Shown here piece by piece: positions 1-23,516 of a stretch of 23,516 bases of DNA (the stretch's first letter is position 1; each line of letters begins with the position of its first letter). A model generated the notes under the pieces. The model was given only the letters and a program-made list of their open reading frames with translations. It was not told the DNA's origin and searched no databases. This stretch comes from a virus. The stretch spans positions 1 to 23,516 of the IMG/VR virus record IMGVR_UViG_3300037193_003602; one strand, 5' to 3'. A program made the translations under genes and the position numbers.

Positions 1-360
1 TCAATTAAACATATCAGGCTGCGATTTTGATATCGCGGAACGACGAATACGTTTAAGCGCGCGATACACAGCATTCACACTAATCCCATGCTTCCGGGCA
101 ACAGCGTGCATATTATTCCGATTCGCCTCATTAAAGATAGCCAGATCGCGCTCGGTAATCTTGAATAAGTGGTTTTTAGGCACACTGAATACCTGGCCGC
201 CCCAATGTTCGGACAAATGGTTTGAGACATCTATGCCGGTTTGCTCGGCAAGCGATGCATCGACGTTATTGTCGATTAATATTTGTTTGATTTGCGAGGC
301 AATATCATCCAAAAACTCATGCCTAGTGCAACTCATATCTGTTTTTCTATCGTCCAGCAT
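1..360 (-). CDS. mor: Mor/C-family middle/late transcription activator
   Basis: This 119-residue protein is close to the length of Mu Mor (about 129). Visible family marks are the GGQVFSVPK segment at residues 54-62, the turn between the dimerisation helices and the DNA-binding part, and a C-terminal helix-turn-helix at about 79-105 with HAVARKHGISVNAVYR. Mor and C proteins bind a dyad upstream of promoters that lack a good -35 and recruit RNA polymerase. It is the last gene of the leftward early operon, as expected for an activator made late in early expression. The ATG at 360 has GGGAGG about 11 bases upstream; an internal ATG at 336 has no ribosome site. No second C-like gene is visible in the window, so this one protein may activate the late promoters directly. 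The stop codon is the first three bases of the window. Confidence 0.88.
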   Translation of the reverse strand: MLDDRKTDMSCTRHEFLDDIASQIKQILIDNNVDASLAEQTGIDVSNHLSEHWGGQVFSVPKNHLFKITERDLAIFNEANRNNMHAVARKHGISVNAVYRALKRIRRSAISKSQPDMFN

Positions 361-9930: not shown

Positions 9931-10242
9931 TTAGCGTGCGCCCGAATGGACGCGTTGGTTAAGTTCGTTGATGCGGCCTTGGGCGCGCGCCATTTCATCC
10001 GCATGTGCTTGTGCTATTTGCAGCATGCGCACGCTCAGTGCGTAGCGCCCGTTGTCCAGCTTCATTGCAAAATTCTCGGCAATTAGCGTGTTCAAACAGC
10101 GGTTAACGGTTGCGGGGCTTTCGCCCAGGTGTTTTGCCAAATCGGTATTGCTTAAACCGTTGAGTGTTTGGCCCTTGAGTGCGCTGATCACGCGCAGCAA
10201 ACGGGCGCCACTTTCGAGCGTGCGAGTTTTATCGTTACTCAT
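9931..10242 (-). CDS. IclR-type winged-helix regulator
   Basis: The 103-residue protein has a winged helix at about 8-75. It shows SGARLLRVISALKGQTLNGLS, then NTDLAKHLGESPATVNRCLNTLIAENF as the helix-turn-helix, then LDNGRYALSVRM as the wing. This is the plan of the IclR DNA-binding domain without the effector domain. Small IclR-like proteins occur in early operons of BcepMu/B3-type phages. The ATG at 10242 overlaps the preceding stop by eight bases and has GGAAG upstream. Confidence 0.72.
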   Translation of the reverse strand: MSNDKTRTLESGARLLRVISALKGQTLNGLSNTDLAKHLGESPATVNRCLNTLIAENFAMKLDNGRYALSVRMLQIAQAHADEMARAQGRINELNQRVHSGAR

Positions 10243-10450
10243 CTTCCAACTGCTCCAGCAATTCCAGGGCTTCGTTGTAATTGTGGTGCGGCATATAGCC
10301 CACACTGTGAACACCGAGCAAAAAGCCTTTAATCAGTGTTAATGAATTGCTGCACCAATCACTCACCAATTCGTCCCAAGGGTTGAGCACCGAATACACC
10401 TGGGGCAAAAGGCTGCTGACTTGATGGAGGATTTGGGATTGCTTACCCAT
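10235..10450 (-). CDS. Small hypothetical protein
   Basis: The 71-residue protein is not recognised. It begins MGKQSQILHQVSSLLPQVY, contains DELVSDWCSNSLTLIKGFL, and ends with an acidic ALELLEQLEDE. The tail is probably helical. The start has GGGAG seven bases upstream, and the gene overlaps both neighbours by eight bases, so it is translated as part of the operon between two regulators. Confidence 0.45.
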   Translation of the reverse strand: MGKQSQILHQVSSLLPQVYSVLNPWDELVSDWCSNSLTLIKGFLLGVHSVGYMPHHNYNEALELLEQLEDE

Positions 10451-11137: not shown

Positions 11138-11151
11138 GGACGTTTATGTCT
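11138..11151 (+). promoter_or_regulatory. Operator copy 1 (GGACGTTTATGTCT)
   Basis: This is a 14-base near-palindrome whose core GACGTTTATGTC differs from the perfect dyad GACATTTATGTC by one base. It lies in the 60-bp space between the divergent Ner-type and repressor genes, where the early promoter and the repressor promoter must be. It is a probable binding site of the XRE repressor, the Ner-type protein, or both. Confidence 0.65.
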
Positions 11152-11167
11152 ATTTTCGGAAAGATTA

Positions 11168-11181
11168 GGACAAATATGTCT
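11168..11181 (+). promoter_or_regulatory. Operator copy 2 (GGACAAATATGTCT), over the repressor start codon
   Basis: This is the second 14-base copy, 30 bases (about three helical turns) from copy 1. Its ATG is the start codon of the repressor gene, and its first bases supply the AGGA ribosome site. Occupancy would therefore block the repressor promoter region or its leader, which suggests autoregulation. On the minus strand the same place gives TTGTCC, a possible -35 for the early promoter, but I could not find a convincing -10. Confidence 0.65.
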
Positions 11182-11637
11182 AACAGTCAAGAGATTAACA
11201 GCCCTCTTTCGGACATTTATGTCTGTTTAAGATTGAAAGAGGAGCGTGAGCGCAAGAGGTTGAGCCAAGGTCAGGTTGCAGCCGAACTGGGGGTTACCGG
11301 AAAAACCGTGTGGCGATGGGAAAAGGAAATTCCCATACCTAGCGATAAATTGAATATGTTGAAGAATTTGGGGTTCGATGTTGTTTATGTGCTTACCGGG
11401 GAACGAAGCCTCAGCTCCATGATTGCGGCTGATTTAACTGGTGTTCAATATGAAATCTATGGTGAAAATGGCAGGGCGCCACGAATGCCGGGTGATGGGG
11501 TTGGTGAGCCTGTATCGGAATACGAAGTGAGACTAAAGAAACTATGCAAAGACTTTATGGATATCGATGAGCCAGGACGCTTGGTTGTCGAAGCAATGAT
11601 TGCGGCGCTACTAACAAAGAAAAATACGGAGAATTAA
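11176..11637 (+). CDS. XRE-family phage repressor
   Basis: The 153-residue protein has an XRE helix-turn-helix at about 17-72: CLRLKEERERKRLSQGQVAA, then ELGVTGKTVWRWEKEIPIPS, then KLNMLKNLGFDVVYVLTG. The VVYVLTGE end is typical of phage-repressor-like XRE proteins. The C-terminal half (about 80-150) is acidic and helical, with no S24 peptidase or serine-lysine dyad, so induction would not go through RecA-stimulated self-cleavage. I choose the ATG at 11176, with AGGA five bases upstream, over the ATG at 11146. It is divergent from the early operon, the standard place of the c repressor. It probably binds the GGACnnnTATGTCT sites around its own start. Confidence 0.8.
   Translation: MSNSQEINSPLSDIYVCLRLKEERERKRLSQGQVAAELGVTGKTVWRWEKEIPIPSDKLNMLKNLGFDVVYVLTGERSLSSMIAADLTGVQYEIYGENGRAPRMPGDGVGEPVSEYEVRLKKLCKDFMDIDEPGRLVVEAMIAALLTKKNTEN
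11211..11224 (+). promoter_or_regulatory. Operator copy 3 (GGACATTTATGTCT), inside the repressor gene
   Basis: This is the best copy, with perfect dyad symmetry in GACATTTATGTC. It lies 43 bases (about four turns) after copy 2, within codons 12-17 of the repressor. The phased spacing of the three sites suggests cooperative binding on one face of the DNA. Confidence 0.65.
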
Positions 11638-12181: not shown

Positions 12182-12253
12182 AAGTGCCCCCTAGAACGGC
12201 AAATCTCTGGTTTGATTGACCCTTCCATCCTCGCGCGCGCGCCGTGGAATGTA

Positions 12254-12298
12254 TTTTTGCGCGCGCAAAATTACACAAATGAATGCTCCCGCTAATCT
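12254..12298 (+). promoter_or_regulatory. Putative activated late promoter before the lysis genes (Plys position)
   Basis: A 22-base element at 12254-12275 consists of the perfect palindrome TTTTGCGCGCGCAAAA (12255-12270) with one more T before it and TTACA after it. The same 22 bases occur once more, before gene I. About 31-33 bases from the palindrome centre are GCTAAT and TAATCT, possible -10 boxes, and no -35 is visible. That is the plan of promoters activated by Mu Mor or C. Transcription would begin near 12305 and read into the holin gene. The remaining stretch between 12182 and 12351 holds only an alternating CG tract at 12232-12243 and no gene I can support. Confidence 0.55.
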
Positions 12299-12351
12299 GG
12301 CGTTGTTGGTACGAACTAAAACTATTCAACGAAAAGCTTACGGAGTGTGTA

Positions 12352-12783
12352 ATGGAAAAACTAATTTTGATTGCCTCATTGGTGCTCGTATTTTCTGCAT
12401 CGGCTTGGTTGTTACTGAAATTGTTCCCTGGGCAATCAAAGTCCGAGGAAGTATGGCCGCGTTTATTTGCCTGGGTCTTTTTTACAGCCGTGGTATTTGC
12501 CGGGCTTTATTTTATTTCCCCGGCACAGGCAGCAGTGGCGTATTACAAATTCACGCTGGTAATTGGTTCCTCATTGCTGGGGTACTGGATTGACAGGGCA
12601 ATATTTCCGTATTCCAGGCCCGATGGTTATTTAAAAGAATTTTGGCAAAAAGGCAGCGATGAACCGATTGGGCGCGCGGACTATGAAGTTGTAGAGCAAT
12701 ACAACCGCGTGTTCGGTACCGCGATGATTCGCCGCGCGATTATTATCGGCTCGACGGTACTCAGTGTTTGCCTGGGGCTATAA
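12352..12783 (+). CDS. Putative holin (2/3 transmembrane type)
   Basis: The 143-residue protein has hydrophobic segments at about 3-22 (LILIASLVLVFSASAWLLL), 40-58, 63-85 (including VIGSSLLGYWID) and 122-143 (AIIIGSTVLSVCLGL). The middle carries LGYWIDRAIFPYSRPDGYL, a motif I know from Mu-like phage holins of the putative 2/3-TM class. It is the first gene after the predicted late promoter and directly upstream of the lytic enzyme, so it most likely forms the membrane lesion that times lysis. The ATG at 12352 has CGGAG eight bases upstream; a longer reading from 12283 has no such site. Confidence 0.72.
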   Translation: MEKLILIASLVLVFSASAWLLLKLFPGQSKSEEVWPRLFAWVFFTAVVFAGLYFISPAQAAVAYYKFTLVIGSSLLGYWIDRAIFPYSRPDGYLKEFWQKGSDEPIGRADYEVVEQYNRVFGTAMIRRAIIIGSTVLSVCLGL

Positions 12784-12785
12784 CC

Positions 12786-13538
12786 ATGAACAAATTAATT
12801 TTATGGTGGCCTCAAATCGCCATTATTGTCCTGTTCGCAGTGCAATGTTGTGCCGCGATCTGGATGCACGGCAATCAAGTAAAAATTCACGTATTCCCAA
12901 GCTTTGTTCGCACAGCGCTATTTTTATTCTTGTTGTCTGCGGGTGGTTTCTTTGTAAAACCAGCGTCGGCAGAAATTATCCCAAATGCAGCAAAACAACA
13001 CCGCGCAACGCTCGTACGCAGCGCGCATATGGTGTGGGGTTTGGATGCGCCCGTTGCAACGTTTGCTGGCCAAGTGCATCAGGAAAGCCGTTGGAATGTA
13101 GTTGCGCGTTCGCCCGTTGGTGCTGAGGGTTTAGCGCAATTCATGCCGACAACTACAGAATGGATTGCAGCGGCGTACCCGAAACATTTAGCAGCCGCAC
13201 AACCGTATAACCCAGGCTGGGCAATGCGAGCCCTGGTGCAATACGACCTGTGGTTATATTCACGAAACCAAGCCCGTAGCCCATGCGAGAAATGGGCAAT
13301 GATCCTCTCGGCCTACAACGGCGGCCAAGGTTGGGTTAACCGTGACCGCAGGCTGGCGTTAGCTTCCGGGGCTGATGGGCTGGCTTGGTTTGACTCAATC
13401 GAAAAATTCAATGCGGGCCGTTCCGCCGCAAACTTTAAAGAAAACCGACATTACCCGCGCGTAATTCTATTGCGTTGGGAGCCGCTTTATGTGGATTCCG
13501 GTTGGGGTAATGGGGTTTGTACCAGTTTTAAATTCTGA
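12786..13538 (+). CDS. Lytic transglycosylase (SLT/lysozyme-like endolysin) with membrane N-terminus
   Basis: The 250-residue protein has an SLT-type domain at about 75-200. The catalytic glutamate lies in GQVHQESRW (E100), followed by the substrate motif GAEGLAQFMPTT and the later SAYNGG. It cuts the glycan strand of murein for host lysis. The N-terminus is unusual. A first membrane segment (about 5-27) is followed by a short basic stretch and a second one (about 42-58) that ends in KPASA, a good signal peptidase site. An internal ATG at 12864 would give just the second segment as a plain signal peptide. The ATG at 12786 follows the holin stop by two bases. Confidence 0.8.
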   Translation: MNKLILWWPQIAIIVLFAVQCCAAIWMHGNQVKIHVFPSFVRTALFLFLLSAGGFFVKPASAEIIPNAAKQHRATLVRSAHMVWGLDAPVATFAGQVHQESRWNVVARSPVGAEGLAQFMPTTTEWIAAAYPKHLAAAQPYNPGWAMRALVQYDLWLYSRNQARSPCEKWAMILSAYNGGQGWVNRDRRLALASGADGLAWFDSIEKFNAGRSAANFKENRHYPRVILLRWEPLYVDSGWGNGVCTSFKF

Positions 13539-13549
13539 GGATTTACACA

Positions 13550-13768
13550 ATGAATATGCGCGCAAAATTTCAAGTTGCCAGTGTCACCTTCAGCGAAAAC
13601 GGGGCGGAGGTAAAACTGGTTCCGGTGGTGAATGGAAGTGAAGAAAACCAGAAGTTCTTCAAATGGACACCATACGGTGAGATCAAGTTAGGGCTGGTTA
13701 ACAAGGAGCAGGCCGAAGCAATGAAACCCGGTAAAGCGTTTTATATCGACTTTACCCCCGCTGAGTAA
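13550..13768 (+). CDS. Small conserved phage protein
   Basis: The 72-residue protein reads RAKFQVASVTFSENGAEVKL, then FFKWTPYGEIKLGLVNKEQA, and ends KPGKAFYIDFTPAE. The pattern of strands, with TP-x-x-x-I-x-L-x-x-x-N and a final FY-x-DFTPA, is common to small phage proteins of unknown function that sit in lysis or pre-terminase regions. It looks like an all-beta fold. The ATG has GAGG nine bases upstream. It is followed at short distance by Rz. Confidence 0.6.
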   Translation: MNMRAKFQVASVTFSENGAEVKLVPVVNGSEENQKFFKWTPYGEIKLGLVNKEQAEAMKPGKAFYIDFTPAE

Positions 13769-13781
13769 CCAGGTGAAGACC

Positions 13782-14183
13782 ATGCTGCTTAAAAGACTAA
13801 CCCCCTGGATTATCGGTTGCGTAGTGTTTTGCGCAGCATGCGTTATGAGTTACCGCGAGGGCGTGACGGCGACTCACAAAAAATATTTAACGGAAGAAAT
13901 CAGCGAACTGAATAAATCTATCGGCAATTTGCAAGCGGCCACCAGGGATGCGGGCCATGCGAATTTGCTGCTGAACCAAACTATCAGCAAGCGCCAGAAG
14001 GCGGACGCTGAATCTACAAAGGTATTTGCCAATGCGCTCGCTGCTACTGCTCATTTGCGTTTTAACTGCCTGTTTGATCACAACATCATGCAACAAATTT
14101 CAGAGACGGCAGACCGAGCCGATCAAGCCGCAACCAGCGGTATTAGTTTCACCCTGCCCACCAGTTCCCCGCCCGATGGATAA
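13782..14183 (+). CDS. Rz: Rz-like inner-membrane spanin subunit
   Basis: The 133-residue protein has one N-terminal membrane anchor (about 7-25, IIGCVVFCAACVMSY). A periplasmic coiled coil follows at about 38-95 (EEISELNKSIGNLQAATRDA), then a flexible serine- and proline-containing end. This is the plan of Rz, which spans the periplasm and fuses inner and outer membrane at the last step of lysis. The identification is backed by the nested Rz1 gene in the +1 frame. The ATG at 13782 with AGGTGA upstream is preferred over the GTG at 13773. Confidence 0.75.
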   Translation: MLLKRLTPWIIGCVVFCAACVMSYREGVTATHKKYLTEEISELNKSIGNLQAATRDAGHANLLLNQTISKRQKADAESTKVFANALAATAHLRFNCLFDHNIMQQISETADRADQAATSGISFTLPTSSPPDG

Positions 14184-14283
14184 CAGTTGTGATGCTATGA
14201 CTGCAACGCTGAAAGCGATGTACGACGCCTACGGCCTGTGCGCCGGGCGATACCTGGAACTAATCAAAAGACAAAGTGAGTAA
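14032..14283 (+). CDS. Rz1: Rz1-like outer-membrane lipoprotein spanin, overlapping Rz
   Basis: The 83-residue product in the +1 frame has a short lipoprotein signal (MRSLLLLICVLTACLITTSC). The best lipobox is LTAC, with TTSC a second option. A proline-rich stretch (KPQPAVLVSPCPPVPRP) follows, the hallmark of Rz1. It starts inside Rz and runs 100 bases beyond the Rz stop, a common embedded-overlapping arrangement. The ATG at 14032 has AAAGG upstream. It pairs with the Rz coiled coil across the periplasm. Confidence 0.78.
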   Translation: MRSLLLLICVLTACLITTSCNKFQRRQTEPIKPQPAVLVSPCPPVPRPMDNSCDAMTATLKAMYDAYGLCAGRYLELIKRQSE

Positions 14284-14288
14284 ATGAA

Positions 14289-14660
14289 ATGAGCTTAGGC
14301 GAATTAATTGCTGTAGCAGTGACAGTGGTATTAGCGCTCATAGCTGCATTTTGGGGGCTGCTTTCAATTTTGTTTCGCCAGTCACAAGAGCGAATAGCAG
14401 AAAAATTTGAAGCTCTCGAAAAAAGCAATGCTGAAAGATTTTCAGTACTTGAAAAAAGTAATCAAGAGAAGTTTGCCGTATTGGATCAGTCCACAAAAGA
14501 ACTGGCTAGGCTGGAAAAAGAGTTTCTTAACTTCAAAGCCGACCTACCCAACCAGTATGTGCGCCGTGAAGATTACATACGCAATCAAGCGGTGATGGAA
14601 AGCAAGCTGGATGCGATAGCTAACTTATTAATGACAGGTGGAAACAATGTTAAATGTTGA
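14289..14660 (+). CDS. DUF2730-like membrane coiled-coil protein
   Basis: The 123-residue protein has one membrane segment (about 5-28, LIAVAVTVVLALIAAFWGLL) and then a long coiled coil built on three repeats of 11 residues. It ends in VRREDYIRNQAVMESKLDAI, an end typical of Mu-like phage proteins of the DUF2730 type found just before the terminase genes. The function is not known. There is no strong ribosome site, and the short distance from Rz1 suggests coupled translation. Confidence 0.62.
   Translation: MSLGELIAVAVTVVLALIAAFWGLLSILFRQSQERIAEKFEALEKSNAERFSVLEKSNQEKFAVLDQSTKELARLEKEFLNFKADLPNQYVRREDYIRNQAVMESKLDAIANLLMTGGNNVKC
14400..14498 (+). repeat. Three tandem 33-base (11-codon) repeats in the coiled coil
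   Basis: Codons 38-48, 49-59 and 60-70 encode EKFEALEKSNA, ERFSVLEKSNQ and EKFAVLDQSTK. The unit of 11 residues (hendecad) is expected to give a straight or slightly right-handed coiled coil. The DNA of the first two units is still similar, so the array probably arose by recent duplication and may vary in copy number between relatives. Confidence 0.7.
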
Positions 14661-14964
14661 TCACGCAAAAGCTCGCCGCGAGAGTATGCGGTGGACCATT
14701 GTGTTAACACTCCAACACGCACGGCCAATGGGGGCGCACGAAAGTTTAATTCTGGCGACTATCCAAGGGGTTTACCCGGATGCAACTGGGTTGGAATTGC
14801 GCCGCGAATTGGACTACCTGCATGACCGGCTGGTAATTGAAGTTAAAAAAGAGCCGTCGGGCATTTGGTTTGCCGAATTAACTGCATTGGGTGTAGATAT
14901 CGCTGAATACACAGTGGATGTACATCCGGGCATTGCACGGCCAGCAAAATATTGGGCGGGCTAA
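14647..14964 (+). CDS. Winged-helix phage protein of the pre-terminase region
   Basis: The 105-residue protein reads RWTIVLTLQHARPMGAHESL, then LRRELDYLHDRLVIEVKKE, then IWFAELTALGVDIAEYT, and ends GIARPAKYWAG. The helix pair and wing, plus the G-V-D-x-x-E-Y-T and GIARP-x-KYW ends, are typical of a small protein regularly found between the lysis and small terminase genes of BcepMu-like phages. Its role is unknown; DNA binding is inferred from the fold. The ATG has AGGTGG six bases upstream and overlaps the preceding gene by 14 bases. Confidence 0.65.
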   Translation: MLNVDHAKARRESMRWTIVLTLQHARPMGAHESLILATIQGVYPDATGLELRRELDYLHDRLVIEVKKEPSGIWFAELTALGVDIAEYTVDVHPGIARPAKYWAG

Positions 14965-14967
14965 ATC

Positions 14968-15489
14968 ATGCCACCACGTAGCAAAGTCGAACAAATGCCA
15001 CCGGAAGTTAAAGCTTGGCTTGACCGCGCTTTGGTCGAAAACAATTTCAGCGAGTACGAAGCGCTTGCAGCCGAATTGAAAGAACGTGGTTTTGCAATCA
15101 GCAAAAGCGCGCTCAACCGGTACGGCCAGGATTTTGAAATGCGGTTGGCCGCATTAAAGATGGCCAGTGAACAAGCCAAGGCGATTGTAGAGGCCACGCC
15201 CGATGATGAAGGTGCAGTTAGCGACGCGCTCATGCGCTTGGTGCAAGAAAAGCTATTCACAATGCTATTGGCCGAGGAAGGCAAAGTGGATTTGCCAAAA
15301 GCCGCAAAAGCGATCGCTGAATTAGCCAAGGCCACCATTGCGCAAAAGAAATTCTCCATTGAGCAAAGTGCCCGGAAGAAACTGCTGGCGGAACAAGAAG
15401 AGCGTTTGCAGGAGGAGCTTCGCGGCGCAGACGGCGCGAGTGAAGAGTTTGAGGCTCGCTGCCTTAGAGTTCTAATGGGTAAATCCTGA
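14968..15489 (+). CDS. DUF3486 (Mu gp27-like), probable small terminase subunit
   Basis: The 173-residue protein starts MPPRSKVEQMPPEVKAWLDR and continues NFSEYEALAAELKERGFAIS and KSALNRYGQDFE, the signature helix-turn-helix of the DUF3486 family. A long helical part with ARKKLLAEQEERLQEEL follows. In Mu this gene (gp27) lies before the large terminase and is taken as the small, DNA-recognising packaging subunit. Its stop overlaps the terminase start by one base. Confidence 0.82.
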   Translation: MPPRSKVEQMPPEVKAWLDRALVENNFSEYEALAAELKERGFAISKSALNRYGQDFEMRLAALKMASEQAKAIVEATPDDEGAVSDALMRLVQEKLFTMLLAEEGKVDLPKAAKAIAELAKATIAQKKFSIEQSARKKLLAEQEERLQEELRGADGASEEFEARCLRVLMGKS

Positions 15490-17255
15490 TGAGTGCTGAA
15501 GCTAAGTTAGTTCCCACATCCAAACCGCGCAAAATCAACCTTGCTGAAGAGATGGAGTTGCACGGCGTAGTGGTACCGCAAGAGGTATCAACGGCTCAGC
15601 CAGAAAATGAAGCGGTGTTTCTGCCATACCAAAAGCGTTGGTTTGAAGACGAAAGCCAAATCATGATTGCGGAAAAATCGCGCCGTACCGGTTTGACCTG
15701 GGCGGAAGCGGGCCGCAATGTTATCAATGCAGCCAAGCCACGCAAGCGCCGGGGTTGTAATACCTTTTACGTGGGCAGCAAACAGGAAATGGCCCTGGAA
15801 TACATTGCGGCCTGTGCGCTGTTTGCAAAAGCATTCAACGAAATGGCGCAAGCCGATGTGTACGAACAAACCTTTTGGGATGAAGGCAAGAAGGAAGAAA
15901 TTCTGGCGTACATGATTCGCTTCCCCAAAAGCGGCCACAAAATTCAGGCGCTCAGTTCACGCCCGTCAAACCTGCGTGGTTTACAGGGTGATGTGGTGAT
16001 TGATGAGGCGGCGTTCCATGAATCCCTGGAAGAATTATTGAAAGCTGCCCTGGCATTAACTATGTGGGGTAATAAGGTTCGTTTAATCAGTACACACGAT
16101 GGGGTTGATAATGCGTTTAATGCCTACATTCAGGATGCACGCGAAGGTCGGAAGGATTACAGCGTGCACCGCATCACGCTCGATGATGCGATTGCCCAGG
16201 GTTTGTATAAACGTATTTGCTACGTTACCAACCAGGAATGGTCGCTAGAGGCCGAAAAAAATTGGCGGGATAAGCTATACAAGAATGCTCCCAATATCGA
16301 ATGTGCGGATGAAGAATATGGATGCGTGCCCAAAAAGAGCGGCGGAAATTACCTATTGCGTGTAAGTATTGAAGCGGCAATGGTGCAAGACCAATCCATT
16401 CCGATCCTGCGTTACGAAGCTCCAAAAGATTTTATATTGTGGTCGGAAGAGATGCGCAAGGCAGAGATTAATACTTTTTGCAATGACATCATCCTGCCTG
16501 AGCTAAACAAACTGGATAAAAAGTCACGACACACCTTTGGTGAAGACTTTGCGCGCCGTGGTGACTTAACCTCATTGGTACCTCTCACGATTAATGAACA
16601 TTTGCGCAAACGCACCCCTTTCATTGTGGAGCTGCGTGACCTTACGTTTAACCAACAATGGCAAGTGGTGGAATTCATTATTGATCGCCTGCCAGGATTC
16701 CAACATGCCTCTTTTGATGCGACGGGTAACGGTGCCTGGATTGCCGAACAAGCCGCGCTTAAATACGGTGTGAATATGGTGGAGCAAGTGCAAATCACTC
16801 AAGGCTGGTACGCCGAGTGGATGCCCAAACTGAAAGGCGAGTTCGAAGCGTTCAAGATTGAAATTCCACGTCACCAAAATATCCTGGATGATTTGTTAAG
16901 TGTGAAATTGGTTAACGGTATCCCTCTCATTGATAAAGGCCGTACCAAAGACGAAGAGTCCCAAAATATAAAAGCAAAACGCCATGGCGATTTTGCGGTT
17001 GCCTTGTGTATGGCAAACCGATCCAGTTGGGCAGATGGTGGTCCGATAGAAGCCACAATACCCAATGGCCGCCACAGTCGTGGTAATGATGATGATGACG
17101 AAGATTTGCATGGTCGCTTTGGCGGCGTTTGGAGAAAAATATGCTCATTGATATCCACGGTAATCCACTCAAGCGCGACGCAATTAGTGAGCCTCAAACC
17201 GCGAAACTCGGCAGTTTGCATCGCGAGTTTGCCGGGCACCCTGCAAAAGGTTTAA
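15489..17255 (+). CDS. Terminase large subunit (Mu gp28-like)
   Basis: The 588-residue protein has an ATPase part with the variant Walker A AEKSRRTGLT at 61-70 and Walker B LQGDVVIDEAAFH near 165-177. A nuclease part follows with GEDFARRGD (about 350), SFDATGNGAWI (about 407) and KRHGDFAVALCMA (about 496), supplying the acidic metal ligands. It drives headful packaging of phage plus flanking host DNA. After the expected end around GRFGGVW, the frame runs on for some 38 residues inside the portal gene (a 115-base overlap). That tail (KICSLISTVIHSSATQLVSL and on) looks like out-of-frame portal DNA, so the original stop was probably lost. Confidence 0.9.
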   Translation: MSAEAKLVPTSKPRKINLAEEMELHGVVVPQEVSTAQPENEAVFLPYQKRWFEDESQIMIAEKSRRTGLTWAEAGRNVINAAKPRKRRGCNTFYVGSKQEMALEYIAACALFAKAFNEMAQADVYEQTFWDEGKKEEILAYMIRFPKSGHKIQALSSRPSNLRGLQGDVVIDEAAFHESLEELLKAALALTMWGNKVRLISTHDGVDNAFNAYIQDAREGRKDYSVHRITLDDAIAQGLYKRICYVTNQEWSLEAEKNWRDKLYKNAPNIECADEEYGCVPKKSGGNYLLRVSIEAAMVQDQSIPILRYEAPKDFILWSEEMRKAEINTFCNDIILPELNKLDKKSRHTFGEDFARRGDLTSLVPLTINEHLRKRTPFIVELRDLTFNQQWQVVEFIIDRLPGFQHASFDATGNGAWIAEQAALKYGVNMVEQVQITQGWYAEWMPKLKGEFEAFKIEIPRHQNILDDLLSVKLVNGIPLIDKGRTKDEESQNIKAKRHGDFAVALCMANRSSWADGGPIEATIPNGRHSRGNDDDDEDLHGRFGGVWRKICSLISTVIHSSATQLVSLKPRNSAVCIASLPGTLQKV

Positions 17256-18721
17256 CCCCTGCGAAACTCGCCGGTGTTCTCCTGGAAGCTGAGCAAGGCG
17301 ACTTAACCCGGCAAGCAGAATTGTTCATGGACATTGAAGAGCGCGATGCACATATTTTTTCTGATATGAGCAAGCGTAAGCGCGCGGTGATGATTCCGAG
17401 CTACGAGGTAGTTCCTGCCCGCAACGCCGGACGTGAAGAGAAAAAGGATGCGGAGTATCTGACCGAGGTGTTACAGGATATCGACGGTATCCAGGATTTA
17501 TTTTTTGATTGTATGGACGGTATAGGTCATGGCTTCGCAGCGATTGAAATTGATGGCTGGCAACGCTTGGGCACAGACTTTATGCCGAAAGCATTTGTGC
17601 ACCGCCCGCAAAGCTGGTTCCAGTTAGCACAGGAAAATCAAAACGAATTACGGCTGCGGGGCCCCGGTGAAGGTGAGGAATTACGCCCATTGAACTGGAT
17701 TATGCATCGGCCACGCGCACGTAGCGGATATGTTGCGCGCACAGGGTTGTTCCGCGTGTTGGTGTGGCCGTATTTGTTTAAACACTATTCCGTGTCCGAC
17801 TTGGCGGAAATGCTGGAGATTTATGGATTGCCATTACGCATTGGTAAATATCCATCGGGTGCAGGGGAAGATGAAAAGGCGACGCTATTACGTGCAGTGA
17901 TGGCGCTGGGGCATTCAGCGGCAGGCATTATTCCCAGCAGCATGGCAATTGAATTTGAAAAAGCCAGCGAAGGAACCAGCGAGCCATTCCTTGCAATGAC
18001 ACGCTGGGCCGAAGAGGCTTGTAGCAAAGCGATCCTGGGTGGAACCTTAACCAGTAGCACATCCGCAAGCGGAGGTGGCGCGCATGCATTAGGGGAAGTG
18101 CATAACGAGGTGCGCAAAGACTTACGCGATGGTGACTGCAAGCAATTAGCGAACACACTGACCCGTGATTTGTTGTGGCCCATTTTGGTGTTGAGTAAAG
18201 GCAACCGCGATCCACGCCGCGCGCCGCGCTTGCAGTTTGATTTACGTGAACCGGAAGACCTGGAGAAATTTACCAAGTCCATCCCGGTGTTAGTGGATTT
18301 GGGAATGGAAATACCGAAAAGCTGGAGTTACGAAAAAACCGGCATACCCAAACCGGTGGATGGTGAGGAAATTTTGGCAAGAGCAAAACCAAAATCCGAA
18401 CCGGAACTGAAACCAATGGATGAGAAAAAGCAACGCGTAGCATTAAGCCGTGTTATCGCCCCGGTTTTTAATGACCAGCAAGAGCTGGACGACTCCCTGG
18501 ATGATATACCGGCAGACGAAATGCAAAACGCAAGCCTTGCAATGATGGGACCGATAATCGATGCCATTAATGCGGGTGCCAGTGAGGCGGAATTGTTGGG
18601 GATGCTTAACGAAGTACTGCCAGGCATGGATGAATCGGTGCTCACCGACGCATTGCATAAAATCATGTTCGCTGCGGATGCCTGGGGCAGATTATTTGCG
18701 GCGGCGGAGAGGGTGGATTAA
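17141..18721 (+). CDS. Portal protein, DUF935 (Mu gp29-like)
   Basis: The 526-residue protein shows DUF935 marks: an N-terminal LTPAKLAGVLLEAEQGDLTR, then FMDIEERDAHIFSDMSKRKR, the core FVHRPQSWFQL, and RTGLFRVLVWPYLFKHYSVS, EIYGLPLRIGKYP, NEVRKDLRDGDCKQLANTL. The family forms the dodecameric portal through which DNA enters the head and to which F is attached. The ATG at 17141 has GGAG seven bases upstream, inside the terminase frame. The last base of the stop codon overlaps the start of F. Confidence 0.9.
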   Translation: MLIDIHGNPLKRDAISEPQTAKLGSLHREFAGHPAKGLTPAKLAGVLLEAEQGDLTRQAELFMDIEERDAHIFSDMSKRKRAVMIPSYEVVPARNAGREEKKDAEYLTEVLQDIDGIQDLFFDCMDGIGHGFAAIEIDGWQRLGTDFMPKAFVHRPQSWFQLAQENQNELRLRGPGEGEELRPLNWIMHRPRARSGYVARTGLFRVLVWPYLFKHYSVSDLAEMLEIYGLPLRIGKYPSGAGEDEKATLLRAVMALGHSAAGIIPSSMAIEFEKASEGTSEPFLAMTRWAEEACSKAILGGTLTSSTSASGGGAHALGEVHNEVRKDLRDGDCKQLANTLTRDLLWPILVLSKGNRDPRRAPRLQFDLREPEDLEKFTKSIPVLVDLGMEIPKSWSYEKTGIPKPVDGEEILARAKPKSEPELKPMDEKKQRVALSRVIAPVFNDQQELDDSLDDIPADEMQNASLAMMGPIIDAINAGASEAELLGMLNEVLPGMDESVLTDALHKIMFAADAWGRLFAAAERVD

Positions 18722-20055
18722 TGCCTACGCCCACTGCCGCCGACTTACAAGCGATGTTCGGCATGGAGCCCGCGCAAGCGATCAATTATTTGAAGCGCAA
18801 AGGCTATGCAATCACCTGGGACTGGCATGAAGTGGAGGCAGCAACCCACGCCCGCGCCTTCACGGTTGCGAAGGCCGCGCGGTTGGATATTTTGCAAGAC
18901 ATTCGCAACGCACTGGTTGAGAACTTTAGGGCGGGAAAAACGGAAAGGGATTTTCAACGTGAGCTAACCCCGATCTTGCAAGCCAAGGGCTGGTGGGGAA
19001 AACAAATTCTGGTGGACGCTAAAGGCGACGCAGAAAAAGTGCAATTGGGTAGCCCGCGCCGATTAAAAACCATTTACCAAACCAACGCCCAAAGCGCGTA
19101 CATGGCGGGCCGCTATGCGGAAGCGCTACGTGCGGTGAAAACACATCCGTATTGGATGTACATCGCCATCAATGACCGGCGTACGCGCCCAAGCCATCGC
19201 GCGCTGCATGGCAAAGTGTACCGTTGGGATGATCCGATCTGGCAATACATCCTGCCCCCCAATGGCTACAACTGCCGCTGCCGCTTCATTGCGTTAAGTG
19301 AGCGTGAAGTAAAACGGCGCGGTTTAAAAATTGAAAGCAGCGAAGGCATGGTCAGTGTAAAACCGGTGGACGCGGGCTTTAGCAAACGCACCGGCGAAGT
19401 CAGCACGACCAATGTGATTGTGTTACGCACAATGGATGCCGCAGGCAAAAAAATTACATTCTCGCCAGACCCTGGCTTTAACGGCTCGCCCGCACAAAGC
19501 CATCTGTTTGATGAATTCTTACTGGGAAAAGCAAAACGCGCCCTGGGCGATGAACAGGGATTAGCGGAAGTGCAAAGCACCTTGTTAAGCCCAATACGGC
19601 AAGCCGCGTGGGAAGCGTTTGTTGATTCATCATTAAAAAATCAAGTGCCCCAGGGGCAAACCATGGCCTTTGGTGTAATGAGTAAAACAGACACGGACTT
19701 TGCGCAACGAAAAGGAGCAGCATTGCAAAGCGGTGTTCTCTTCCTGGAGGACCGGCAACTAACCGGCGCAAAAGCCACGCGGCACCAGTCAGCGGAAAAT
19801 GGATTAACACCGGACGAATGGAAATCGCTACCCCAACGCATTAGCCAGGCTGAACGTGTGTTATGGGACACCAAAAATAAAACCCTGTTGTATGTATTCC
19901 CCGCTGGTGATGGCCGCGACACCAAAATCGCGATTCGTTTTGGGCGTACAACGGTGGCGGGCAATAAAGTGGAAGATGCCGCAACTGCGTTTAAAGTTCA
20001 GCGAGCGAATATAGACGATGGGATCAACAACGGAATGTATGAAGTGGTGAGGTAA
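18721..20055 (+). CDS. F: Minor head protein F (MuF/SPP1 gp7 domain) with C-terminal nuclease-like extension
   Basis: The 444-residue protein has the MuF domain at about 50-195: TIYQTNAQSAYMAGRYAE, then INDRRTRPSHRALHGKVYRW, then ILPPNGYNCRCRFI. By family it is a minor capsid protein bound to the portal, injected or needed for morphogenesis. The C-terminal 145 residues (about 300-444) are a separate domain with LEDRQLTGAKATRHQSAENG, then LPQRISQAERVLWDTKNKTL, then DTKIAIRFG. That layout (a histidine-containing loop, a helix, then paired strands) resembles the PBECR group of BECR-fold nuclease-like domains fused to MuF in other phages. The assignment of this tail is tentative; the MuF part is secure. 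Confidence 0.87.
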   Translation: MPTPTAADLQAMFGMEPAQAINYLKRKGYAITWDWHEVEAATHARAFTVAKAARLDILQDIRNALVENFRAGKTERDFQRELTPILQAKGWWGKQILVDAKGDAEKVQLGSPRRLKTIYQTNAQSAYMAGRYAEALRAVKTHPYWMYIAINDRRTRPSHRALHGKVYRWDDPIWQYILPPNGYNCRCRFIALSEREVKRRGLKIESSEGMVSVKPVDAGFSKRTGEVSTTNVIVLRTMDAAGKKITFSPDPGFNGSPAQSHLFDEFLLGKAKRALGDEQGLAEVQSTLLSPIRQAAWEAFVDSSLKNQVPQGQTMAFGVMSKTDTDFAQRKGAALQSGVLFLEDRQLTGAKATRHQSAENGLTPDEWKSLPQRISQAERVLWDTKNKTLLYVFPAGDGRDTKIAIRFGRTTVAGNKVEDAATAFKVQRANIDDGINNGMYEVVR

Positions 20056-20120
20056 GCGGGGCGCCGGACTTGCACCGGATAACAGGCGAACCTGACCTTT
20101 CTATTAGGAAACTACCCCGT
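20056..20120 (+). ncRNA. Possible branched structured RNA in the F-G space
   Basis: A closing stem of six pairs (20056-20061 GCGGGG with 20115-20120 CCCCGT) encloses three small hairpins. These are CCGG-loop-CCGG (20064-20078), CAGG-CGAA-CCTG (20083-20094) and TTTC-loop-GAAA (20098-20111). All four stems can form together, giving a compact four-way-junction-like shape in only 65 bases between the F stop and the G start. I know no named RNA family that it matches. It could be an mRNA control element for G or chance pairing. Confidence 0.3.
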
Positions 20121-20148
20121 GGAAACACTATAAACCTGGAACTGGTAA

Positions 20149-20757
20149 ATGACAAACATCGAACTCAAGGTTACCCATAATGACGTTCAGCAAGGCTTGC
20201 AGGACTTGCTCGAGCACCTGACCAACACCGCCCCGGTGTTTGCATCCATTTCGCAAGAGTTCGCAACACAAACCGAATTGATTATTCAAAACGAAGGGCC
20301 AGGCTATTCCACACTGAATGCAAATATTAAAGGGCGCGGCACTGCCTCTGGCGGCTGGCCGCAACTTGCACCACGGACAATTAAGCAGCGCGGCAGCGCG
20401 CACCCCATCTTACAAATTACCGGTGCATTGGCGCGTTCGTTCCTGCCGTACTCCGGTGACGACTATGCCGGGATTGGTAGCAATGACCCGCGCGCAGCGA
20501 TTCACTTTTTCGGTGGCAAAATCCAAATGCCAGCCAGAAGCCAGCAAGCGTATTTCCGGCAAGACCAAAAAACCGGTGAAGTCGGTAATAAGTTTGTGAA
20601 GAAAAAGAAAAGCAATTTTGCCCAATGGGTAACGATCCCTGCGTACGTTATCAACATTCCCGCCCGCCCAATGTTTCCGGTAGATGCCGAGGGGAATTTG
20701 TTGCCCCACGTTGCAGAAACCTTGCTGGAAATTTTTGCGGATTACCTGCTGGAATAA
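20149..20757 (+). CDS. G: Phage virion morphogenesis protein G
   Basis: The 202-residue protein has the virion morphogenesis/tail completion signature: EGPGYSTLNANIKGRGTASG, then GGWPQLAPRTIKQRGSAHPI, then LQITGALARSF. It ends with an IPARPMFPVDAEGNL segment. In Mu, G follows F and is needed for tail and head completion. Its position between F and the protease gene agrees with the Mu order. The start has only a weak ribosome site (GGAACTGG). Confidence 0.85.
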   Translation: MTNIELKVTHNDVQQGLQDLLEHLTNTAPVFASISQEFATQTELIIQNEGPGYSTLNANIKGRGTASGGWPQLAPRTIKQRGSAHPILQITGALARSFLPYSGDDYAGIGSNDPRAAIHFFGGKIQMPARSQQAYFRQDQKTGEVGNKFVKKKKSNFAQWVTIPAYVINIPARPMFPVDAEGNLLPHVAETLLEIFADYLLE

Positions 20758-20925
20758 TGTGGCCTCTCAGAGCGCCTACAATCGCTTGGGTTGCGTTCCG
20801 CTACACTCGCCCGACTTTCTCCCTCGACCGCGTTTATAAACCCGCTTGCACGGTTTAATTGGCAGCGAAACCCGCCGGTTGGCGCTGCATGTAAAAAAAA
20901 TCCCGAATGCTATCCAAAAATAGTT
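20758..20925. other. G-I intergenic region, position of the Mu strong gyrase site
   Basis: No gene is supported here, although a TTG-started frame runs through it into gene I. It contains an inverted repeat at 20862-20888 (GCAGCG with CGCTGC, and inside it AACC-CGCC-GGTT), then a run of eight A at 20893-20900. The A run is not followed by T, so it is not a standard rightward terminator. In Mu the space between G and I holds the strong gyrase-binding site that aligns the prophage ends. Position alone suggests the same here; no gyrase consensus can be read by eye. Confidence 0.35.
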
Positions 20926-20970
20926 TTTTTGCGCGCGCAAAATTACAAATTTTTTTACGCCATGCACTAT
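20926..20970 (+). promoter_or_regulatory. Putative activated late promoter before gene I (PI position)
   Basis: This is the second exact copy of the 22-base element (20926-20947), with palindrome TTTTGCGCGCGCAAAA at 20927-20942 followed by TTACA. CACTAT at 20965-20970 lies 33 bases from the palindrome centre, the same distance as TAATCT in the copy before the lysis genes. No -35 box is seen. In Mu the C-activated promoter PI stands in this place. A start about seven bases after the -10 would fall on the ATG of gene I itself. Confidence 0.55.
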
Positions 20971-20976
20971 GGCCAC

Positions 20977-22089
20977 ATGAATACAAAAACCCCCACACCA
21001 GTACCGTTTGCCGTCGCCGCCTGTTCCTTTGGAATACGCGAGGCCATTAATGCTAACAACGAAGTTGTTATGCAGCTCACTCCGGCTGGCATTTTCAAGC
21101 CAGCGGATGACCGACCATTAAAAGTGCCGCATTGGCATATCGATAAAGCAATCGCTACGAAAGTCATTGATCGCTTCAATGCGCGTAAACAACGTGTGGT
21201 GGTGGATTACGAACACCAGACCTTGCACAAGGAAGAAAACGGGCAACCAGCGCCCGCCGCTGGCTGGATGCGTGAACTGATCTGGCGCGAAGGCGAAGGC
21301 TTGTTTGCACGCGTGAAGCTTACCAAGCGCGCACGTGCGGCCATTGAAGACGAAGAGTATTTATTTGTATCCCCTGTTTTCCGTTATGCCACCAACGGTG
21401 ACGTAACTGAAATTGAAATGGCGGCATTAACCAATGACCCCGGCATTCACGGCATGCAAGCCCTGGAGCTGCGTGCCGCCGCAACATTCGGCTATCAAAC
21501 TGAGGAACCCGTTATGAACAAACTGCTTGCTGCATTAATCGCTGCACTGTCATTACCGCAAAACACATCTGAAGACGATGCCGTAGCGGCATTAACAGCC
21601 CATATTGCGAAAGACCCTTTCAAAAACCTGCGCGAAACTTTGGGGCTTCCCAGTGCCGCAAGCGAAACAGAGTTAGTTGCTGCGTGCACATCGTTAAAAA
21701 CCAAAAACATTGACCCGGCGCAATATGTGCCCGTGGGCGTGGTCACCGAACTGAAAAACGAAATTGCCGCGCTGACCAGGCGCGTGAACGAGGGGGACGA
21801 AAAATCGGTAGCCGAAGAAATTGAAGCGGCAATCGCTGATGGCCGTCTTCACGGATCAATGAAGACCTGGGCGGAGGACCTGGCTAAATCAGATCGCGCC
21901 GCACTGACGCGTTACCTGAAAGACCAGCCAACCATTGCGGCGCTGACTGGCTCGCAAACCGGTGGCAAACACCCTGCGCCAAATGCAGACAGCGAAACCG
22001 GGTTAACGGCGGATGAGATTGCTATCTGCACGCAATTGAATATCACGCATGACGAATTCAAAAAGTCGAAAAAGGAAGTCGCTAAGTAA
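20977..22089 (+). CDS. I: Mu-like head maturation protease with scaffold (I/Z)
   Basis: The 370-residue protein has a Mu-type protease domain at about 5-170, with VVVDYEHQT (residues 74-82), PAAGWMREL (93-101), EEYLFVSPVF (126-135) and MAALTNDPGIHGM. By family the histidine in YEHQT and the serine in SPVF are the catalytic candidates. The C-terminal part (from residue 180) is the helical scaffold, ending in LTADEIAICTQLNITHDEFK as in other Mu-like phages. It cleaves scaffold and head proteins during capsid maturation. I take the ATG at 20977, which gives the usual family N-terminus (VPFAVAACSF). No ribosome site precedes it or the ATG at 20962. Confidence 0.85.
   Translation: MNTKTPTPVPFAVAACSFGIREAINANNEVVMQLTPAGIFKPADDRPLKVPHWHIDKAIATKVIDRFNARKQRVVVDYEHQTLHKEENGQPAPAAGWMRELIWREGEGLFARVKLTKRARAAIEDEEYLFVSPVFRYATNGDVTEIEMAALTNDPGIHGMQALELRAAATFGYQTEEPVMNKLLAALIAALSLPQNTSEDDAVAALTAHIAKDPFKNLRETLGLPSAASETELVAACTSLKTKNIDPAQYVPVGVVTELKNEIAALTRRVNEGDEKSVAEEIEAAIADGRLHGSMKTWAEDLAKSDRAALTRYLKDQPTIAALTGSQTGGKHPAPNADSETGLTADEIAICTQLNITHDEFKKSKKEVAK
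21514..22089 (+). CDS. Z: Internal in-frame scaffold protein (Z-type) from an internal start
   Basis: The ATG at codon 180 of gene I is preceded by TGAGGA at the right distance (about eight bases). The product would be 191 residues, starting MNKLLAALIAALSLPQNTSE, which is exactly the scaffold part without the protease. In Mu, the scaffold Z is made from an in-frame start within I. The present site is far better than the start of I itself, so separate scaffold synthesis is likely. Confidence 0.65.
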   Translation: MNKLLAALIAALSLPQNTSEDDAVAALTAHIAKDPFKNLRETLGLPSAASETELVAACTSLKTKNIDPAQYVPVGVVTELKNEIAALTRRVNEGDEKSVAEEIEAAIADGRLHGSMKTWAEDLAKSDRAALTRYLKDQPTIAALTGSQTGGKHPAPNADSETGLTADEIAICTQLNITHDEFKKSKKEVAK

Positions 22090-22622: not shown

Positions 22623-23516
22623 ATGATTATTAACAGTACAACCTTGCGCAACATGTATGTGGCTTTCAGTGCTGCATTCAAGTCAGGCATTCCCAATGCG
22701 AAGCCTGAGTACGAAAAATTCACTATGACCACCACGTCAACCACCAAATCGAATGAATATGGCTGGTTGGGTGCAACCTCTCGCTTCCGGGAATGGATCG
22801 GTGACCGGGTATTGCAGTCATTGAAGTCTCATGGCTATACCATCAAGAATAAAAAATTCGAGAACACCGTTGAGGTGGATCGCGATGATATTGAAGACGA
22901 TAACCTTGGGATTTACACCGTACCGTTTCAACAACTGGGTAAAGATGCGGCTGACCATCCCGGCGAACTGGTTTACACCCTTTTCAATAGCGCGTTCACC
23001 ACTGAGTGTTACGACGGCCAATATTTCTTCGACACAGACCACCCCGTATTAAATGCGGATGGGACTGAAAGCAGCGTGAGTAACTTTGGTGGCGGGTCAG
23101 GGCCTGCATGGTATTTGTTTGATACCACCCAAATTATCAAACCCTTCATTTTGCAAAAGCGCCGAGATTACAAATTTAAAGCGTTGGACAACGAAACCGA
23201 CCAGAACGTGTTTATGCGCGATGTGTATATCTATGGCGTGGATGCCCGCTTAAATGTCGGCTTCGGTTTGTGGCAATTGGCATACGCCAGTAAGCAACCG
23301 TTAACCGAAGCAAATTTGAATGCTGCATTCGACGCGATGCGTGCATTCAAAGGGGACAACGGTAGACCATTGAACATTAAGCCATCGTTGCTGGTTGTTC
23401 CAACCACGCTGCGTCAGACCGCTAAAAAATTGCTGGAAAACGAAAACAACGATGCGGGCGCAAGTAACTCAACCCGCAACCTTGTTGAGTTTATGGACAC
23501 CGCTTATCTGAACTAA
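22623..23516 (+). CDS. T: Major head protein T (Mu gpT-like)
   Basis: The 297-residue protein matches the Mu-like major head family: LRNMYVAFSAAFKSG at the start, EYGWLGATSRFREWIGDRV, IKNKKFENTVEVDRDDIEDD, DGQYFFDTDHPV, and the end with PSLLVVPTTLRQTAKKLLEN. It forms the capsid shell. The ATG has GGAG nine bases upstream. The stop codon is the last three bases of the window, so the gene is complete and the tail genes must lie further right. Confidence 0.92.
   Translation: MIINSTTLRNMYVAFSAAFKSGIPNAKPEYEKFTMTTTSTTKSNEYGWLGATSRFREWIGDRVLQSLKSHGYTIKNKKFENTVEVDRDDIEDDNLGIYTVPFQQLGKDAADHPGELVYTLFNSAFTTECYDGQYFFDTDHPVLNADGTESSVSNFGGGSGPAWYLFDTTQIIKPFILQKRRDYKFKALDNETDQNVFMRDVYIYGVDARLNVGFGLWQLAYASKQPLTEANLNAAFDAMRAFKGDNGRPLNIKPSLLVVPTTLRQTAKKLLENENNDAGASNSTRNLVEFMDTAYLN

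Follow-up and report, generated by a model that had tools for sequence, protein, structure and literature searches.

The window, by which the whole analysed stretch of 23,516 bases is meant, is an IMG/VR fragment of a Mu-like phage with a B3-like layout, and it raises the question of what acts at a short palindrome that stands once before the lysis genes and once before gene I. Its leftward early genes end in GemA and Mor at the left edge, a repressor-like helix-turn-helix (HTH) gene is found at 11146, and the rightward genes follow in the order holin, endolysin, spanin, terminase, portal, F, G, protease I and major head protein. The genes needed for the argument are these:

1..360, minus strand: Mor-family activator (Pfam PF08765 at 2e-28; PHROG 'late transcriptional activator')
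12352..12783, plus strand: holin, first gene of the lysis/packaging operon (PHROG 1528 at 1.4e-32; Pfam Holin_2-3)
12768..13538, plus strand: endolysin (PHROG 669)
20977..22089, plus strand: gene I, head maturation protease/scaffold (PHROG 328 at 1.5e-109)
22623..23516, plus strand: major head protein (PHROG 371; comparison with JBD25)

The Mor-family protein has the recognition helix ISVNAVYRALKR and is matched in phmmer to Mu Mor (1rr7, 2.6e-8) and Mu C (9l0x, 0.0014). It is the only PF08765 protein in the window, which is a fragment with the contig end at 23516. As this end falls into the major head protein gene, the tail genes and an expected third element are missing. The GC content of the window is 49%, compared with 62-63% in the relatives L004, L049 and L050, and the host of the window phage is therefore probably from a different group.

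An identical 22-mer, TTTTTGCGCGCGCAAAATTACA, is located at 12254-12275 and 20926-20947 and nowhere else in the window, as the earlier note had claimed. It contains the 16-bp palindrome TTTTGCGCGCGCAAAA (12255-12270 and 20927-20942, plus strand), for which a scan of all 23,516 bases allowing up to three mismatches gave no third match. Of 660 random 40-bp segments taken from related phages, not one had a 21/22 match elsewhere in its own locus, so the two exact copies are not due to chance. The description of the element as a 16-base palindrome followed by TTACA holds for both copies, with one refinement: because the dyad of the lys copy reaches 26 bp, TTACA is the outer arm of this longer palindrome. 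The gene I copy shares this core and has a degraded left outer arm, and symmetry over 26 bp drops to 10 of 13 positions.

12250..12275, plus strand: lys copy, a 26-bp near-palindrome TGTATTTTTGCGC/GCGCAAAATTACA, centre 12262/12263, 12 of 13 positions symmetric
20922..20947, plus strand: gene I copy, centre 20934/20935, perfect 16-bp core at 20927-20942

Both copies read in the late direction, ahead of the holin with the other lysis genes and ahead of gene I. The same places are occupied in related phages, in line with the assignment to the Plys and PI positions of Mu. An alternating C/G run is seen upstream of the lys element at 12232-12242. The same 22-mer is also present in a 7.6-kb contig with a GC content of 48% (L003:1674-1695, minus strand), the sole other contig matching the 21-mer pattern. 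There it is placed between a tail gene and an open-ended reading frame resembling a tail-fibre gene, with TACAGT at the right distance for a -10 box. This contig may come from a sibling phage with a further late promoter.

Candidate -10 boxes are found at the same offset from both copies, +31..+36 from the dyad centre, which agrees with the distance of about 33 bases given in the earlier note.

12293..12298, plus strand: proposed -10 TAATCT of Plys, same offset from the element as at PI, start predicted at about 12305
20965..20970, plus strand: proposed -10 CACTAT of PI, ending 6 nt before the gene I ATG

As single hexamers these boxes are weak, and no sigma-70 -35/-10 pair was found at either element, again as had been proposed. 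The gene I start at 20989 was dropped in favour of ATG 20977, the conserved start, which aligns with the annotated gene I starts of JBD25, Fc02, UMP151, phiSHP3 and LPB1. Between this ATG and the dyad centre there are 42.5 bp.

When the window Mor and gene I were each used as a single protein to scan viral contigs, no close relative came up; to the gene I of B3-like Pseudomonas phages that of the window has 55% identity. With an alignment of three gene I proteins as the query, 80 viral and 22 genome loci were obtained. The search for repeats started in each of them from nothing but the DNA upstream of gene I, for which the best match anywhere in that locus was determined. A repeated element with at least 19 of 22 positions matching was obtained in 29 of 44 non-redundant loci as compared with 10 of 660 random segments (Fisher 5e-32), whereas in the remaining 15, Mu and distant ones among them, the scan from upstream of gene I revealed no strong repeated element. 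The best partner of the gene I element is mostly found either some 8 to 9.8 kb upstream or at 5 to 7.6 kb on the downstream side. The reading frame following the upstream copy is a holin in eight of ten tested cases, and that following the downstream copy is the tape measure in seven of ten and a tail protein in one more. The search of related phages named in the earlier note thus recovered the repeated dyad at holin, gene I and tape measure. In complete relatives the number of copies is exactly three, and each of them is in late orientation. Of this B3/D3112-like late promoter set the window holds the lys and gene I copies, with the tape-measure region beyond the contig end.

The sequence of the element differs between phages and is common to the copies within each phage. 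JBD25, Fc02 and UMP151 carry the 22-bp element TTTTCGCnCCTTCCAAAAnACA before the holin, gene I and the tape-measure gene; Stenotrophomonas phage phiSHP3 has another element before its first late gene and gene I. The IMG/VR relatives L050 and L069, with L055 alongside, have TTTTTGCGCC[G/C]GCAAAA[A/T]TACA at the lys, I and tape-measure positions, and the window element differs from it at the central two base pairs. D3112-like phages, which include DMS3 and JBD30, are represented by LPB1; a first shared-motif search, confined to 200 bp ahead of annotated genes, missed this phage, since the start annotated for its first late gene is downstream of the element. In two further relatives, L071 and L059, the transposase genes (L152 and L156) each contain one TAA within the transposase match; these are perhaps decayed prophages or sequence errors. 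That the element might be a functionless repeat, left by a recent duplication or of a host-type intergenic kind, is suggested by the exact identity of the two window copies, but relatives carry differing dyads at the same two or three places, changing in concert, which makes a repeat of this sort almost inconceivable.

The spacing is kept together with the positions. A -10-like A...T was present at the PI offset (±1) in all 42 lys and tail copies of relatives, where 9% would be expected, and in 32 of 33 non-redundant phages, against a background of 5%, a NANNNT has its end 6-7 nt ahead of the ATG of gene I. In phages with a clear dyad its centre is about 42-44 bp before this ATG. As the distance to the -10 nearly matches that in Mu, the element sits where a Mor/C dimer should, without a -35; the dyad takes the -35 place with its centre near -43 relative to the predicted start. 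In the spacer between element and -10, an alternating C/G run of at least 8 nt occurs in 19 of 42 lys and tail copies (L028, L022, L014 and L069, for instance) and in 1 of 27 gene I copies, with a background of 0.2%. The fixed spacing also bears on a role of the element in RNA, as a terminator or attenuator hairpin between operons. Its placement between transcription units would suit such a role, and in the accessible text of the Fc02 study a terminator bounds a late cluster (PMC9936078). The distance to the -10 is constant, however, the dyads of many relatives are too imperfect to form good hairpins, and in window scans neither copy was among the terminator-like hits or matched an Rfam family. 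An RNA-level function is therefore considered very improbable.

Which protein uses the site was approached through covariation. A PF08765 match was detected in 37 of the 42 phage records searched, exactly one in each; no Mor was found in the L055 contig, which is a fragment. In 22 non-redundant phages the similarity of the PI site correlated with the identity of Mor (r=0.78). Controlling for gene I left a partial r of 0.755 (p=2e-4), while gene I identity given Mor gave r=0.16 (p=0.13), although in the window gene I is 43 bp from the PI site and Mor more than 20 kb. In the 16 phages with a comparable transposase, Mor remained correlated with the site given transposase and gene I (r=0.64), and so did transposase given Mor (r=0.60), so part of the covariation may reflect shared ancestry of the early region. 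For this reason the best evidence comes from natural swaps of Mor and from a common recognition helix. L020 and L028 are 88% identical in gene I and 84% in transposase, their Mor proteins only 31%, and the L028 element differs from the L020-type element at lys, I and tape measure; the latter was read from the relative L022, which has the same Mor helix and PI site as L020. Many relatives have a Mor at much the same distance (36-42%) from that of the window, which is 40% identical to those of L050 and L069, yet the helix pattern NAxYR (NAIYRLLKR in both L050 and L069) is common to the window phage and these two only, and only they have 91% of the site alike. The identity and positions of the sites, their spacing, their sameness within each phage and their covariation with Mor are established by these sequence data.

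An immunity repressor or a Ner-like protein could also have the dyad as its operator and silence the late promoters during lysogeny. Repressor operators are often perfectly symmetric, HTH proteins are encoded in the window at 11146-11637 and 9931-10314, and the correlation of transposase with the site would be in keeping with an early-region regulator. This explanation is nevertheless unlikely. The site takes the -35 place at the distance known for Mu Mor and C, no copy was seen at the early control region in the window scan, and there is no sigma-70 -35/-10 pair that would need repressing. The site moreover follows Mor in phages whose early and late neighbouring genes are similar and whose Mor proteins are not.

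The repeated palindrome is thus very probably the site where the Mor-type activator of the phage turns on the lysis and head genes, and the proposal of the earlier note agrees with the positions, the spacing from the dyad to the -10 and the tracking of Mor by the site in relatives. In the full explanation, to which we assign a probability of about 0.88, Plys and PI would have operators bound by a dimer of the single Mor-family protein (1-360), one activator would serve the late units, and gene I would be leaderless. Occupying the -35 place, about 43 bp ahead of the start, Mor would recruit host sigma-70 polymerase to the weak NANNNT -10; binding and activation are what we infer from the comparisons above. 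Since the leftward early operon has mor at its end, late genes would come on only after Mor has been made. In the B3-, phiSHP3- and D3112-like lineage one activator would directly serve lys, gene I and usually the tape-measure region, with no Mor-to-C cascade of the Mu type, and the sites would evolve together within each genome as the recognition helix of Mor changes.

A further point, new here, is that the mRNA of gene I appears to be leaderless and that the -10 lies inside a small inverted repeat. With the predicted +1 placed 6-7 nt after the -10, it coincides in nearly all relatives with the A of the gene I AUG or the base before it. A start at or beside this A at PI would give a leaderless message. 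No Shine-Dalgarno sequence was seen before gene I in the window, where the spacing is CACTAT-N6-ATG; the holin ATG at 12352 is preceded by GGAG. Shine-Dalgarno sequences of at least 4 nt precede gene I in 2 of 33 phages as against 21 of 24 other late genes of JBD25 (Fisher 2e-10). The gene I mRNA is therefore probably leaderless, starting right at the start codon.

20959..20973, plus strand: inverted repeat GCCAT-gcact-ATGGC around the PI -10, GC-rich, with the -10 in the loop

A stem score of at least 5 was obtained for the gene I repeat in 24 of 33 relatives compared with 24% of shuffles, and its loop is over position -9/-10 in 28 of 33, with arms that vary between phages. The repeat may act as DNA, in melting or as a protein site, or as a translation block in read-through RNA. 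We lean slightly towards a general scheme for the B3- and D3112-like phages in which gene I would be made only from a leaderless mRNA started by Mor, with the -10 in the loop of the repeat and without product from Plys read-through, and in which the lineage would be a series of activator-site pairs with many shifts in specificity. In LPB1 (L005, 9997-10341) the lys-side element seems to give a leaderless first gene (CACGAT-GGCGGC-ATG); this reading frame belongs to PHROG 3648 and is unannotated, the first late gene of the record being annotated from 10289.

The suggestion that the GC-alternating core might mark a new recognition class was not borne out. L050 and L069 have nearly the same element and the NAxYR helix, which places the window element as one specificity in a fast-diverging set. 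As one Mor-family protein per phage and no separate C were found, a diverged specificity within the Mor/C family is indicated. Judged by its sequence, the element is a variant of the Mor/C-activated late promoter, with the core as one of many lineage specificities. It probably does not belong to a Mu C regulon in the strict sense, since a separate C under Mor control was found neither in the window fragment nor in any of the 37 relatives positive for PF08765, and the half-site CATAACC is absent from the window element.

With these elements, late promoters can be identified by sequence alone for the B3- and D3112-like transposable phages, a large group in wide use, for which the literature searched, as far as its accessible text goes, offered only sigma-70 predictions and RNA-seq clusters. 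No earlier description of such a repeat was found in the accessible text of that literature, which did not include the B3 genome paper. Pairs of Mor and site, with constant geometry and changing site, are in addition a ready data set for DNA recognition in an HTH family.

Among known systems the closest in layout are JBD25, Fc02 and UMP151, B3-like phages of Pseudomonas aeruginosa, in which Mor also stands at the end of the leftward operon. They differ from the window in the element TTTTCGCnCCTTCCAAAAnACA and in a Mor that is 38-40% identical (39.5% over the aligned part for Fc02) with the helix PSSIYK; L050, one of the two relatives with a similar site, differs in GC content (63% versus 49%). 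For Fc02, the accessible text on strand-specific RNA-seq after induction describes a leftward operon ending in mor and then three rightward clusters, namely holin with packaging, structural genes and a third (PMC9936078). These clusters fit the three element positions in number and gene content, in a text that is without start sites.

The late promoters of Mu (Plys, PI, PP and Pmom), which are activated by C, stand at the same places before the lysis and I genes and, like those proposed here, have an activator dyad instead of a -35 and a weak NANNNT -10. In our alignment of the four annotated C-dependent promoters the -10 is 25-30 nt after ATAA, compared with 23-28 nt after AAAA in the window, where the element reads GCAAAATTACA. 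The half-sites differ, GCAAAA(T)TACA versus CATAA(C/T)CC, and so do the activators, one Mor-family protein versus Mor plus C. In Mu the PI transcript has a leader for which a ribosome-binding site is annotated, whereas none was seen at the window PI. At the Mu middle promoter Pm, according to the accessible text, Mor has a 16-bp dyad centred at -43.5 (PMC4390567). The homologous protein of the window would have its centre at -42.5 if gene I starts at the AUG. Mor thus activates a middle promoter in Mu and, as proposed, two or more late promoters in the window, through different half-sites. This comparison suggests that the two-step cascade of Mu, from Mor to C, is one arrangement among others and that in many relatives a single activator serves every late unit.
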